NCBI RefSeq assembly: GCF_004364345.1
Contig: NZ_SOCA01000001.1
Coordinates: 310,001 to 374,000 of the forward strand
Direction of reading: 5' to 3'
Length of the DNA: 64,000 bases
From: Prosthecobacter fusiformis
GTDB lineage: Bacteria; Verrucomicrobiota; Verrucomicrobiia; Verrucomicrobiales; Verrucomicrobiaceae
The translations under genes were made by a program, and so were the position numbers. The notes beneath the pieces are model-generated. The model saw only the letters and a program-made list of their open reading frames with translations, did not search any database and was not told the origin of the DNA. Positions 17,106-21,619 of the stretch are shown here, in pieces (position 1 is the stretch's first letter; each line of letters begins with the position of its first letter).

Positions 17106-17399
17106 TTAGGATGGCTGGAGGTTCGCCTCCAGCCATTTTTCTTTTTGCACACGGCCGAGCGCTTTGAAGACCCGCTCCGCCTTCAGCGCCGCAGACATGT
17201 CTGCATGGCACCAGGAGCCGAGCAGCCACAGCGGCCCCCGGCCTCGTGTGTATTTGGCCCCCTTCCCTTCCCGGTGCATCTCCAGCCGCCGGTACAGGTC
17301 ATTGGTGATCCCACAATACAGACTGCCGTCCCGACAGCGCAGCACATAGAGGCACCAGGGCTTGGCTGGGGCTTCGACAGACGTGGACGGATCGGGCAT
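17106..17399 (-). CDS. GIY-YIG nuclease-superfamily protein (YhbQ/UPF0213-like)
   Basis: Single-domain GIY-YIG protein of 97 residues. The start at ATG 17399 gives MPDPSTSVEA and then the core: WCLYVLRCRDGSLYCGITND (the GIY...YIG strands appear as LYVL and LYCGIT), RRLEMHREGKGAKYTRGRGP with the conserved Arg and His, and an ERVFKALGRVQKEKWLE end that supplies the Glu/Lys helix. Stand-alone versions resemble E. coli YhbQ, whose DNA-nicking role is poorly defined. Earlier in-frame starts up to 17507 lie in low-quality sequence and are rejected. Its 3' end overlaps the SWIB terminator hairpin. Confidence 0.88.
   Translation of the reverse strand: MPDPSTSVEAPAKPWCLYVLRCRDGSLYCGITNDLYRRLEMHREGKGAKYTRGRGPLWLLGSWCHADMSAALKAERVFKALGRVQKEKWLEANLQPS
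17111..17147 (+). terminator. Intrinsic terminator of the SWIB gene
   Basis: An 11-bp perfect stem (ATGGCTGGAGG at 17111-17121 with its complement at 17126-17136) closes a TTCG tetraloop and is followed by TTTTTCTTTTT. The hairpin doubles as the last codons of the convergent GIY-YIG gene. Confidence 0.93.
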
Positions 17400-17457: not shown

Positions 17458-17483
17458 GTAGCCTGCACAGTCCTCTGTGCAGA
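17458..17483 (-). repeat. REP palindrome, copy A
   Basis: GTAGCCTGCACAG, a TCCT loop and CTGTGCAG: an 8-bp stem with the GTAGC flank on the left. This is the reverse orientation of copy B 90 bases further on, with one change in the loop, so A and B form a head-to-head pair upstream of the transposase gene. Confidence 0.85.
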
Positions 17484-17571
17484 GAGCGGGGCGGAGGCAA
17501 AAAGCATAGGTCTGGGTGGGATAAGACAGGCTACGTGGGATTGGAGGAGCTTGGGGGCTTCGCGGTGCTGT

Positions 17572-17601
17572 CTGCACAGGGGACTGTGCAGGCTACTTTT
17601 T
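17572..17601 (+). repeat. REP palindrome, copy B
   Basis: CTGCACAG, a GGGA loop, CTGTGCAG, then GGCTAC-type flank and a T run. It pairs with inverted copy A, giving a BIME-like arrangement that precedes the RAYT gene. Confidence 0.88.
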
Positions 17602-17656
17602 GTGGGCAGATCAAGACTTGCCCTCGCATGGAGTTTGGGTAAGTCGGCGCTGTTGC

Positions 17657-18628
17657 ATGAGTTTTCAATTCTTCAGCCCGCTCGCCAAGGTGTCCGTTAC
17701 GCAGGGTAATCTGCCACACTGGGACCAGGAAGGGGCCACGTATTTTATCACTTGGCGAATGGCTGATTCCATACCCGCCGCCGTTTGGCAGCGCTGGTGT
17801 GCAGAGCGTGATGACTGGTTGTTGCAGCACAGCATTGATCCCAGTTTTCCTGATTGGCGGGTACGAATGGAAGATCTGCCGACCACCGTCCGCCAGGAGT
17901 TCAAACGCTTCACACGCAGCCTGGAACATGAACTTGATGCTGGTCATGGCAGTTGTGTTCTTCGCCGCCCGGAAGTTGCCGGGATTGTAGCGAGCTCCTT
18001 GATGCATTTCGATTCATCCCGTTATACTTTGGGAGACTTTGTGATCATGCCTAACCATGTGCATGTCATCGTTGGAGGAATTGCCAGGGCGACCATGTTG
18101 CAGCAGGTGAAGTCATGGAAAAAGTGGACGGCGCTCAAGATCAATGAGTGCATCGGCCTGTCTGGACGGTTTTGGCAAAATGAAAGCTTTGATCATTTGG
18201 TCAGAAATGAAGCCTCTTTTCAAAAACTGCGGCAGTATATCGCTGAAAACCCTGGGAAAGCAGGGTTGAAGCCTGGAGAATACCTGCTGTGGCAACGTGA
18301 AGGTGGGAGCGAAGGGATAACCGAAAGCTCATCTCCGAAAAGTAGCCTGCACAGGGGACTGTGCAGGCTACTTTTCTCAGATGGCGGCGGCCTCCGCATT
18401 CACTGGCATTGGCTGCGGCTTACGTCCCAGGAGGCGGTTGAGCAGCTTGCCCAAATCATCCACGGCCAGATAACACAGTGGCACGAGGAAAAGGGTGATG
18501 ACGGTGGCGAACAAACTGCCGTAGCCCATGGAAACCGAGACCGGAGTAAGGAACTGGGCGCTGGTGGCCTGGGCAGCACGGTTGTCACCAAAGATCCACA
18601 CCAGCATGTGGCTGATGCCAGGAGGTGA
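17657..18628 (+). CDS. REP-associated tyrosine transposase (RAYT), 3' end reads through a REP
   Basis: Y1-type transposase of the IS200/IS605-related RAYT group, which mobilises or maintains REP palindromes as single-stranded DNA. From ATG 17657 the domain begins as GATYFITWRMADSIP (26-40), carries the metal-binding HUH-type motif MPNHVHVIVGG (His134, His136) and the catalytic tyrosine in LRQYIAENPGKAGL (Tyr194), then the family ending KPGEYLLW (205-212). REP copies lie upstream (A, B) and downstream (C). Oddly, the frame does not stop at the domain end: it runs through REP C (about residues 228-239) and 250 bases into antisense of the RND gene. The original stop was probably lost, so the last 90 or so residues are likely non-native. 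Confidence 0.9.
   Translation: MSFQFFSPLAKVSVTQGNLPHWDQEGATYFITWRMADSIPAAVWQRWCAERDDWLLQHSIDPSFPDWRVRMEDLPTTVRQEFKRFTRSLEHELDAGHGSCVLRRPEVAGIVASSLMHFDSSRYTLGDFVIMPNHVHVIVGGIARATMLQQVKSWKKWTALKINECIGLSGRFWQNESFDHLVRNEASFQKLRQYIAENPGKAGLKPGEYLLWQREGGSEGITESSSPKSSLHRGLCRLLFSDGGGLRIHWHWLRLTSQEAVEQLAQIIHGQITQWHEEKGDDGGEQTAVAHGNRDRSKELGAGGLGSTVVTKDPHQHVADARR
18338..18375. repeat. REP palindrome, copy C, 17-bp stem; also a terminator
   Basis: The 17-base arm 18338-18354 (AAAAGTAGCCTGCACAG) pairs perfectly with 18359-18375 around a GGGA loop. It holds both the core and the GTAGCC flank found in copies A and B. With T runs on both strands between the convergent RAYT and RND genes it should also act as a bidirectional terminator. 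Confidence 0.92.
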
Positions 18629-21619
18629 ATTCTCAATCAGGCTGCCGAACTCAAACATCAGCGGCATGAGGCCGACAAAGGTGGTGATCTGGGTGAGGAA
18701 GATGGCGCGGAAGCGGCTGCGGCCACCTTCCTGCACGGCGTATTTGAGGTCCCCTGTTTCTTCCCGGAGCTGGTTGATGCGGTCCACGAGCACCAGGGTA
18801 TCATTCACGATCACCCCGGTCACCGCCAGCATGCCGCAGACGCTCATGCTGCTGACCGGCATGTCATGGAACAGATGGCCAAGCACGGCCCCAACGATGC
18901 CGAAGGGCACCACAAGCATGACGATGAAGGGCTGGGTGTAGCTCTTGAAAGGAATGGCCATCATCGCATACATGCCTAACAAAATGATCGCCAAGGCCCA
19001 CTTACCCGCATCTGCCCCTTCACGCTGGGCCCGCGCCTCCCCCTCAAAGCTCCACTGGATATGCGGATGGGTGGCCATCAACTGGCGGACAAAGACCTCC
19101 GCATCGGCACGAACCTTGGCAGGGTCTGTCGTGGATTTGTTCACATCGGCGGTGATGTTCATCGCCCGGCGGCGGTCCACACGTTTGATGTTGGTGAAGC
19201 TTTTCCCAACCTTGGCCTCCGCCACACGTGAGAAAGGGATCTCCAGGCCAGACGCGGTCCGCACCCGCATGGTCTCCAGGGTGGCCAGGCTTTTACGATC
19301 CTCTTTAGGATAACGCAGCATCACCTTCACCTCATTGCGCCCACGCTGGATACGCTGGACTTCATCGCCATAAAAGGCCTGGCGCACTTGCCGGGCGAGA
19401 TCGCTGACGGTCACGCCGAAGGACTGTGCCTCGGGTTTCAAACGAAGCTGGATTTCATTGCGCCCGCTGTCCAGGGAATCGGTGATGTCAAAGACGCCTG
19501 AGTAAGTGGCCAGATGCGCTTTGATCTGGTCGGAGATGTCCAGAAGTTCATCGGGATCCGTGCCGGTCAACTGGATGTCCACAGGGTCACCACTGCGGAT
19601 GATCTCCGCGCGAAAGTTCAGTTCCTCAGCCCCAACGATGGTGCCGATGCGCTCCCGCCAGTCGGCCGCCATGTCCACGGTATTGACCTTCAGACTGCGC
19701 TCCTCGGGGCCATAAGTTTCCATGTTGATCTCCCCCACATGAGAGCTGCCGGTGCTGCCGCCGCTGCCCCAGGTCAGACGAGTGGTGCCCGTGGTGGCCA
19801 GAATGGCGCGGATGACGGGCTTGCCATCCGGGCCGACGTATTCTTTGCGCATCTGCTCGGCGATTTCATACATGCGCTGGATGTGAGCATCCGTGACCTC
19901 AAAGGGCGTGCCGTCCAGCATGGTCAGCTTGGCCTCGATGCGCTCACTCTGCACACGGGGAAAAAAGATCCAGAGAATGCGCCCACTGAAAAAGAAGCCG
20001 CAAAGGACGATCAATCCACCGAAGCAGCCCGCCAAGGCCGTATAGCGATGATACACACACCAACGCAGGGCGGGACGGTACACATAGTCCACAAACTTGC
20101 GCAGGTTCCGCTCCGAAAAACGGTGTACAGGCCCCAGGATATCCGATGCACCGCTAAGCCCTGGAACAGGATGCGCCAGATGCGAGGGCAGGACAATTTT
20201 AGTCTCCACCAGAGCGATGAGCATCACCAGGATGAAAACAATGGCGATGGGCTTGAACATCATCAGGAAGTCGCTCGCGCCAAAGGCCATGGGCAGGAAC
20301 GCGATGACGGTGGTGAGCACCCCGAAAGTGATGGGAATGGCCATTTCCTTGGTGCCCTGTATGGCGGCATCCAGGGGGGACATGCCGCGCTGCCGCAAAG
20401 TATCCACATGCTCGGATATCACGATGGCATCATCCACGACAATCCCCAGAACGAGGATGAATCCAAAGAGGGAAGATAGATTGATAGCGATATCAAAAAA
20501 CGGCATCAAAGCAATGGCTCCGAGGAAGCTGGCCACCATACCCACCGCGACCCAAAACACAGCATCCAGGCGGAGGAAAAGGCCCACACAAATGAATACC
20601 AGGATGAGGCTGCTCTGCGCATTTTGAATCAACAAACTGATGCGGCCTTTGACGATTTTGGAGCGGTCATTCCAAAATTCGATCTGCACACCGTCAGGCA
20701 TTCGTTGTTGCGCCGTAGCGATGTATTCTTTGACCGATTCAGCAATGCGGATGGCGTTTTGGCCTCCCTCACGCATCACATTGACCACCACACAGCGTTT
20801 GCCATTCAGCCGGGCCAAGAGCGGATTTTCGTTAAAGCCGTCCTGGATCATGGCAATCTCCCCCAGCGTCAGCTTGGTGCCGTCAGGCCGGGTAAGGATG
20901 ACCACATTGGCATAGTCCTCGCCGGTATAAGCACGACCGCGTGTGCGAATGGAAACATCTCCCGCCTCCGTCTGAACCACGCCTGCTGGCAGGTCCAGTG
21001 CACTGCTGCGAATGGCCTGGCTGACGCGCTCCAGATTCAGGCCGTATTTGCGCAAGGTGGATTCTGGGATCTCGATGCCGATCTCATAAGGCCGCACGCC
21101 AGAAAGGCCTGCATGGGTGATGCCCGGTAGGGCCGAGATTTCATCCCGGATTTGCTCACCTAACCTGCGTAAATCTGCCTCAGCCATGTCTGCGGCGACG
21201 GCCACGGTGATCACGGAGTGAAAGTTATCATCGAGCTGGATGGTCGGTTTTTCCGCCAGTTCAGGCAGGTTAGGAATGGCATCGACACGGATTTTGATGT
21301 CATCCAACACCTCCCGGGGATCTTTGCCTTCCTCCACTTCAATGACGACGGTGCCGCCGCTGGAGGAGGCCGTGGAATTGATGTGCTTGATGCTGCCCAC
21401 CTGCTGGATGGCCTCCTCAATCTTCAGCACGATGCTTTCCTCCACCTCTTCCGGTGCTGAGGCCGGGTAGGGCACCGTGACTGAGATCATCCGGGAGGGC
21501 ATGTCTGGAAAGACTTCCAGTGGGATGCGGTCAGAAAGGAGAGTCCACACGCCAGCAATCATCGCCCCGATCATGAGGAGATTGGCGGCGACGTGGTTGC
21601 GGGCAAACCAGGAGATCAT
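18377..21619 (-). CDS. RND-family efflux permease (AcrB/MdtB type)
   Basis: Proton-driven inner-membrane pump of the resistance-nodulation-division superfamily. 1080 residues, usual length. TM1 is at 9-29 (NLLMIGAMIAGVWTLL), a periplasmic porter domain runs to about 330, then come TM2-6 with the proton-relay pair in VLGIVVDDAIVISEHVDTLR (Asp396, Asp397), a second periplasmic domain, and TM8-12 including GVIVNDTLVLVDRINQLRE, where the second half has N-D in the equivalent place. The closing segment GYGSLFATVITLFLVPLCY is family typical. No membrane-fusion protein or outer-membrane channel gene is adjacent, so substrate and partners are unknown. The 3' end abuts REP C. Confidence 0.93.
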   Translation of the reverse strand: MISWFARNHVAANLLMIGAMIAGVWTLLSDRIPLEVFPDMPSRMISVTVPYPASAPEEVEESIVLKIEEAIQQVGSIKHINSTASSSGGTVVIEVEEGKDPREVLDDIKIRVDAIPNLPELAEKPTIQLDDNFHSVITVAVAADMAEADLRRLGEQIRDEISALPGITHAGLSGVRPYEIGIEIPESTLRKYGLNLERVSQAIRSSALDLPAGVVQTEAGDVSIRTRGRAYTGEDYANVVILTRPDGTKLTLGEIAMIQDGFNENPLLARLNGKRCVVVNVMREGGQNAIRIAESVKEYIATAQQRMPDGVQIEFWNDRSKIVKGRISLLIQNAQSSLILVFICVGLFLRLDAVFWVAVGMVASFLGAIALMPFFDIAINLSSLFGFILVLGIVVDDAIVISEHVDTLRQRGMSPLDAAIQGTKEMAIPITFGVLTTVIAFLPMAFGASDFLMMFKPIAIVFILVMLIALVETKIVLPSHLAHPVPGLSGASDILGPVHRFSERNLRKFVDYVYRPALRWCVYHRYTALAGCFGGLIVLCGFFFSGRILWIFFPRVQSERIEAKLTMLDGTPFEVTDAHIQRMYEIAEQMRKEYVGPDGKPVIRAILATTGTTRLTWGSGGSTGSSHVGEINMETYGPEERSLKVNTVDMAADWRERIGTIVGAEELNFRAEIIRSGDPVDIQLTGTDPDELLDISDQIKAHLATYSGVFDITDSLDSGRNEIQLRLKPEAQSFGVTVSDLARQVRQAFYGDEVQRIQRGRNEVKVMLRYPKEDRKSLATLETMRVRTASGLEIPFSRVAEAKVGKSFTNIKRVDRRRAMNITADVNKSTTDPAKVRADAEVFVRQLMATHPHIQWSFEGEARAQREGADAGKWALAIILLGMYAMMAIPFKSYTQPFIVMLVVPFGIVGAVLGHLFHDMPVSSMSVCGMLAVTGVIVNDTLVLVDRINQLREETGDLKYAVQEGGRSRFRAIFLTQITTFVGLMPLMFEFGSLIENSPPGISHMLVWIFGDNRAAQATSAQFLTPVSVSMGYGSLFATVITLFLVPLCYLAVDDLGKLLNRLLGRKPQPMPVNAEAAAI

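Follow-up and report, generated by a model that had tools for sequence, protein, structure and literature searches.

The locus lies in a 64,000-nucleotide stretch of the Prosthecobacter fusiformis genome, the whole of which we call the window, and consists of a RAYT gene (a TnpAREP-like HUH/Y1 transposase; 17657..18628, plus strand) and three REP palindromes, set between two genes on the minus strand. The left neighbour encodes a GIY-YIG domain (17106..17399) and has its start codon 59 nt from the first palindrome; the right neighbour encodes an RND-type transporter (18377..21619) and is convergent with the RAYT gene. REP A (17458..17482, plus strand) reads GTAG-C-CTGCACAG-TCCT-CTGTGCAG and forms the left, outward-facing end of the cassette. 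REP B (17572..17596, minus strand) reads GTAG-C-CTGCACAG-TCCC-CTGTGCAG, is inverted with respect to REP A and is followed by a 3' tail (17553..17571, minus strand; ACAGCACCGCGAAGCCCC). The two can pair with each other across about 50 nt, and between them, at 17520-17545, is a partial reverse REP (ACAGGCTAC), possibly the remnant of another copy. No consensus promoter was found upstream of the RAYT gene. REP C (18338..18375) is a 'double-foot' palindrome, AAAAGTAGCCTGCACAG-GGGA-CTGTGCAGGCTACTTTT, which forms the right end and stands 1 nt ahead of the stop codon of the RND gene. The cassette in the window is best taken as running from REP A to REP C (17458-18371, about 0.9 kb), and the tags of its outermost REPs face outward, as do those of the cassette in genome G034 described below. 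The initial annotation had REP A as reverse and REP B as forward; read by the GTAG tag, A is forward and B reverse, which is a matter of convention. It had also placed REP C outside the RAYT gene. The open reading frame in fact runs from the ATG at 17657 through REP C to a stop codon at 18626-18628 (323 codons); its conserved part comprises residues 1-216 (about 17657-18304) and the rest is read-through of REP C and of some 250 nt of RND antisense, a run-on of 97 codons past the conserved end.

The protein matches the Pfam model Y1_Tnp (PF01797) above its cut-off (E about 4e-5). It matches the NCBIfam model REP_Tyr_transpos with E=4e-15, and the 55.9 bits fall below the curated cut-off of 80, which marks an annotation threshold and not a biological trait that defines the group; the model has 146 aa, and the window protein has extra blocks. 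A profile built from 31 homologues finds TnpAREP (4ER8) as its best match in the PDB (E=3e-6). The AlphaFold model (pLDDT 89) likewise has 4ER8, in which TnpAREP is bound to a REP hairpin, as its best PDB fold (E=2e-5); the TM-scores, 0.42-0.55, are modest. The HUH motif, NHVH (residues 133-136; 18053..18064), supplies H134 and H136, is invariant in the 31 homologues and is preceded by an extra N-terminal block (LPHW...). The predicted catalytic residue, Tyr194 (18236..18238), sits in YIAENP, the class-2 signature Y---NP; these three residues had been assigned correctly from the start. The WQNESFDHLVR patch (18173..18205) contains W173, Q174, D179, H180 and R183, and in Escherichia coli TnpAREP the W, Q, D/E, H and R positions read the GTAG tag (PMC6006769). 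In the 31-sequence alignment 20 columns are invariant, and the window protein matches all of them; no stop or frameshift was found within the conserved part. Judged from its sequence and predicted fold, the gene is a RAYT, with intact HUH and Tyr motifs. RAYT homologues are present in 249 of the 384 Verrucomicrobiota genomes sampled.

The HUH/Y1 fold and the palindromic ends are also what an ordinary IS200/IS605 insertion sequence would show. We consider this very improbable, since such an element does not account for the Y---NP signature, the GTAG-tagged REPs and the absence of tnpB. Nor does the gene have near-identical copies in its own genome, where the closest paralogue is 50% identical, and three IS200-type TnpA proteins of the same genome score E about 1e-23 against the Pfam model, a far stronger match than that of the window protein. 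Those three high-scoring genes (L012, L013 and L014) have frames of 160-165 aa, two of them near contig ends, and probably represent genuine insertion sequences, separate from the RAYTs.

The three matching palindromes that had been proposed beside the RAYT gene are present. The pattern GTAGCCTGCACAGN4CTGTGCAG, with at most three mismatches, is matched five times in the window against 0.01 expected from shuffles, and the folding z-scores are -3.1 for REP A, -4.2 for REP B and -11.8 for REP C; a scan for hairpins with stems of 9 or more missed REP A and REP B. Rfam gave no match. The GTAGCC flank, described before as common to all three, does occur in each, on one side in REP A and REP B and on both sides in REP C. 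The 17-bp stem reported for REP C was confirmed; it is perfect, with a GTAG at each end. REP C and REP B are identical over 29 nt, the left part of REP C equals the left part of REP A, and joining A to B over their common CTGCACAG yields exactly REP C. At the equivalent place in G034 are a separate forward and a separate reverse REP, 176 bp apart. REP C is most simply read, from these sequences, as a collapsed inverted REP pair that would have lost its spacer; 'double foot' REPs have been described, with the same explanation, in PMC6006769.

Of 23 RAYTs that have a GTAG REP in sense orientation no more than 60 nt away, 14 use the TAG of the REP tag as their stop codon; among relatives at least 46% identical to the query that have a GTAG REP close downstream, 13 of 15 do so. 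Both counts come from related sequences and are not independent. It has been noted elsewhere that the GTAG tag of REPs often gives a TAG stop to neighbouring open reading frames (PMC3733652). In the window the tag of REP C is out of frame; the RAYT frame therefore runs on and has no stop of the kind that the tag gives to its relatives.

The initial annotation held that palindromes confined to this locus would speak against a mobile REP family. The exact core is indeed found at the window locus only in a genome-wide search (reversed controls, 0), a count which by itself misleads; degenerate patterns that allow compensated stems are needed, and these reveal a family of 49 genomic copies (39 have a loop of 4 nt, 10 a loop of 3 nt), again with no match to the reversed-pattern controls. 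Most copies read GTAGC-CCGCTCAG-TCC(C)-CTGAGCGG, those on contig C11 are intermediate, and the dispersed copies share with REP B a 3' tail of roughly AAAGCCACCTCGAAGCCCC. Both sides of the stem change at positions 2, 5 and 8, and Watson-Crick pairs make up 239 of the 256 in 32 distinct variants; because the MAFFT alignment misplaced the loop gap, a script counted the pairs, starting from each end. In the genome stretches read, of which 71% is called as coding, every well-matched copy other than those of the window is intergenic; 'intergenic' here rests on a simple home-made hexamer gene caller, which is conservative and missed the window RAYT itself. The RAYT-REP reading stands; two other parts of the first description are not supported. 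The REPs are not a self-contained unit, as they belong to a genome-wide family, and the inverted pair is not its genomic arrangement. The dispersed copies occur singly or as direct tandems, and inversion is limited to A/B and to the fused REP C; they do not alternate in orientation and are not BIMEs in the strict sense. In the genome of the window (G000) they cluster on contigs C12, C17 and C18 and at C1:213000-274000, and several clusters consist of copies repeated directly in tandem, the period being about 50, 85, 100, 109 or 130 bp.

RAYT and REP go together. The other RAYTs of the same genome each carry their own, different REP. Across 62 RAYTs with a close REP, RAYT distance correlates with REP distance (Mantel r=0.64; the maximum of 2000 permutations was 0.11), a correlation that comes mostly from this genus and measures linked descent rather than independent events. 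The median number of family copies is 29 in genomes whose RAYT is at least 60% identical to that of the window, and 3 in the rest (p=0.002). Exceptions run both ways: G023 has 50 copies with no close RAYT, and G018 has 0, because its REP has changed the top pair (CCGCACAC-TCC-GTGTGCGG). Intergenic DNA often contains hairpins with T runs, and one might suppose that A, B and C are chance palindromes or unrelated terminators beside a transposase-like gene. The number of matches expected in the window, the empty reversed controls genome-wide, the compensatory stem changes and the co-divergence with the RAYT already refute this, and we give it practically no weight.

The comparison with relatives shows the cassette as a unit that is present or absent. 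In G018 and G019 the SWIB, GIY-YIG and RND genes are adjacent, with neither RAYT nor REP between them, and their RND proteins match the C-terminal query at 92-94% identity. The spacers of both genomes have diverged, so that the insertion point in the window is not resolved to a single base. The nearest RAYT homologue, that of G034, is 70% identical and occupies another site, between an MFS gene and lutA. Its cassette is bounded by REPs and is missing in G019 (the MFS and lutA proteins being 98% identical), where homology resumes about 4 nt past the right-hand REP. At its MFS-lutA site G019 (L270) has about 0.7 kb of other sequence, in which there are no matching REPs. Of course, absence of the window cassette from two sister species could reflect loss there rather than gain in the window genome.

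These comparisons bear on the proposal, made in the initial annotation, that the RAYT and its REPs are retained by the cell as a host-domesticated unit, for example for transcription termination or genome structure. The perfect stem of REP C, its flanking A and T runs and its position between convergent genes make a role as terminator plausible; the region has more terminator-like sites than expected (8 against 2.8), B and A among them, and the RAYT gene has not multiplied in the manner of an insertion sequence. Against domestication, the cassette is not conserved at its site in the sister species, RAYT homologues (the nearest included) occupy other sites, and REP C is not among the sites listed by the terminator scan. 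For this copy domestication lacks support, and we consider it improbable.

We are confident that the locus is a REPtron, in which a RAYT gene has GTAG-tagged REPs of its own at either end, REP C being probably a fused pair. Most likely the unit arrived between the GIY-YIG gene and the RND pump gene, and the RAYT would recognise single-stranded hairpins of its family by stem, loop and GTAG tag. Tyr194 would then cut beside the hairpins through a 5'-phosphotyrosine intermediate and the strands be rejoined. Small REP units, each a hairpin with its tail, would thereby have been moved to intergenic sites, giving the roughly 50 copies now in the genome. At the right end a forward and a reverse REP may have lost their spacer by recombination across the shared CTGCACAG, leaving the perfect double-tagged palindrome. 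Some observations sit awkwardly with the REPtron explanation: the exact stem of A, B and C is a minority form among the dispersed copies, and some genomes have many copies and no close RAYT, as G023 does. The window RAYT may not recognise every dispersed copy, and a RAYT since lost could have made them.

A related possibility is that the REPtron is stranded and decaying: the RAYT would once have been active and made the family, and would by now be losing function, having lost its stop codon and with REPs that have merged into a perfect palindrome that the enzyme may be unable to process any more. The run-on beyond the conserved end, through REP C and into RND antisense, could mark a copy starting to decay, and the restriction of the exact stem to this locus is consistent with it; in E. 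coli TnpAREP removal of the stem bulge abolishes activity (PMC8266576), and altered REPs can thus be inert. The invariant columns are, however, all kept, the conserved part is free of stops and frameshifts, and group-3 enzymes use perfect stems (PMC8266576). We regard decay as a less likely reading and treat the locus as an ordinary, well-preserved REPtron with two quirks, the fused REP C and the lost stop.

Very long open frames in several homologues proved to be RAYTs lying in frame within host proteins. We verified 23 cases in which the RAYT is in frame with host sequence on both sides (host domains by Pfam, or by alignment in G077), the HUH and Tyr motifs are intact and there is no stop. 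REP hairpins flank nearly all of them; in the CarB of G065 no hairpin passed the scan. In four bearers (G065, G068, G077 and a Chthoniobacterales MAG; L273, L274, L293 and L074) the RAYT lies within the oligomerisation domain of CarB, the large chain of carbamoyl-phosphate synthase, which measures 1356-1427 aa in three bearers against 1090-1171 aa in six relatives. In two (G073 and G068; L279 and L282) it lies in the editing domain of leucyl-tRNA synthetase, LeuRS, of 1058 and 1119 aa compared to 857-917 aa in relatives. In G019 (L276 2153-5494, minus strand) the cassette is in the linker ahead of the second AAA domain of ClpB, which has 1114 aa, compared to 885 aa in G034 and G000, which have no cassette; DNA homology breaks at the REPs and the variable linker is replaced. 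A second intact orthologue was found neither for CarB in G065, G068 and G077, nor for LeuRS in G073 and G068, nor for ClpB in G019. Further hosts are PriA, HsdR and Eco57I-type enzymes, in three cases each (L072, L336, L343, L329, L333, L345, L344, L272 and L281), a family-4 glycosyltransferase in four, a dehydrogenase pair in two and a TPR protein in one. One of the four glycosyltransferases, the others being in G042, G027 and G011, is from the genome of the window (L289 1707-3743; G000:C11:28706-30742), and the REPs of its RAYT are GGAG-tagged. We note that DNA-metabolism hosts recur (PriA, HsdR and the Eco57I-type enzymes).

Cases without host domains on both sides were left out of the 23. 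These are G062 (L275), where the RAYT lies ahead of a secreted protein and not inside a host domain, and L080, L082, L096, L331 and L340, where Pfam covers the host on one side only. L080 (a Competibacteraceae MAG) and L082 (a Kuenenia MAG), from two other phyla, have an in-frame RAYT in the same Eco57I-type methylase. In Verrucomicrobiaceae bacterium E54 (L079 1642-3600) a protein that looks CinA-like by eye runs in frame into a C-terminal RAYT; as a terminal fusion it was also excluded. By hand count, the frame has at least 450 codons in 53 of the best 150 matches listed for the phylum sample, an upper bound on the share of such insertions, of which only part is verified. Many bearers are draft or metagenome assemblies; the same genes are hit at the same place across genera, which speaks against assembly error.

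In our judgement it is likely that RAYT cassettes of this group settle stably in the reading frames of host genes. A REP-bounded unit would sit in frame in an essential or DNA-metabolism protein, with an apparently intact HUH nuclease as an internal domain and REP hairpins that encode linkers. Disruption of the host gene would be avoided because the frame stays open, and loss of the cassette would carry a cost, since excision would in most cases destroy an essential gene; selection would presumably maintain the arrangement. The window RAYT, which is intergenic, stopless and open through its REP, would be such a cassette in uncoupled form. The arrangement recalls inteins and homing elements, which share a DNA-cutting domain in frame, essential and often DNA-metabolism hosts, and recurrent sites. 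Unlike inteins, the in-frame RAYTs have no splicing domain by Pfam, their ends are REP hairpins translated as linkers, and the ClpB site is a variable linker. Keyword searches of the open-licence literature returned no report of in-frame RAYT cassettes, which is weak evidence of absence, and a published survey discarded unexpectedly long proteins as fusions or annotation errors (PMC6006769). Di Nocera 2013 (PMC3733652) describes REPs inside genes, not whole in-frame RAYT cassettes. The in-frame habitat appears to be undescribed; what is new is where a known element lives, not the enzyme itself.

REPtrons and the GTAG repeats of Verrucomicrobia are already published, and to these the locus adds one more member. 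With the known RAYT systems (Nunvar 2010, PMC2817692; TnpAREP, PMC8266576; TnpAY1 class 2, PMC6006769) it shares the HUH and Tyr residues, the Y---NP signature, the W-Q-D-H-R patch, flanking inverted GTAG-headed REPs, dispersed cognate REPs, co-divergence and a REP directly at the end of the RAYT gene. It differs from them in its longer protein, with the LPHW N-terminal block, in the lost stop codon, in the fusion of the right-hand REP into a double foot and in dispersed copies that occur singly or in direct tandem and have a long tail in common. Members of TnpAY1 subclass 2.4 (Bertels group 4) also have NHVH, WQ, double-foot REPs and REP sequence within the RAYT frame, whereas the window protein has YIAENP in place of YIxNNP and the gene has its REP C at the 3' end rather than between HUH and Tyr. 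In a comparison of motifs, three of the four features of that subclass (NH[IFV]H, WQ, YIxNNP and double-foot REPs) fit, and the window RAYT is a candidate member. The GTAG repeat families of Di Nocera 2013 (PMC3733652) share the tag, the short stem and the intergenic setting and include repeats in Opitutus terrae; the occurrence of such a system in Verrucomicrobiota is accordingly not the novelty it had been taken for. The present family is in another genus and has another stem, and there are several RAYT-REP pairs per genome.

The locus nevertheless offers a clean Verrucomicrobiota REPtron, with empty sites, a palindrome fusion that can still be read and about 50 dispersed relatives. As each Prosthecobacter genome holds several RAYT-REP pairs, the specificity of RAYT for REP could be tested in one cell background. 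If it is true that RAYT cassettes persist inside essential proteins, this would bear on why RAYTs stay single-copy for so long without spreading as insertion sequences do.
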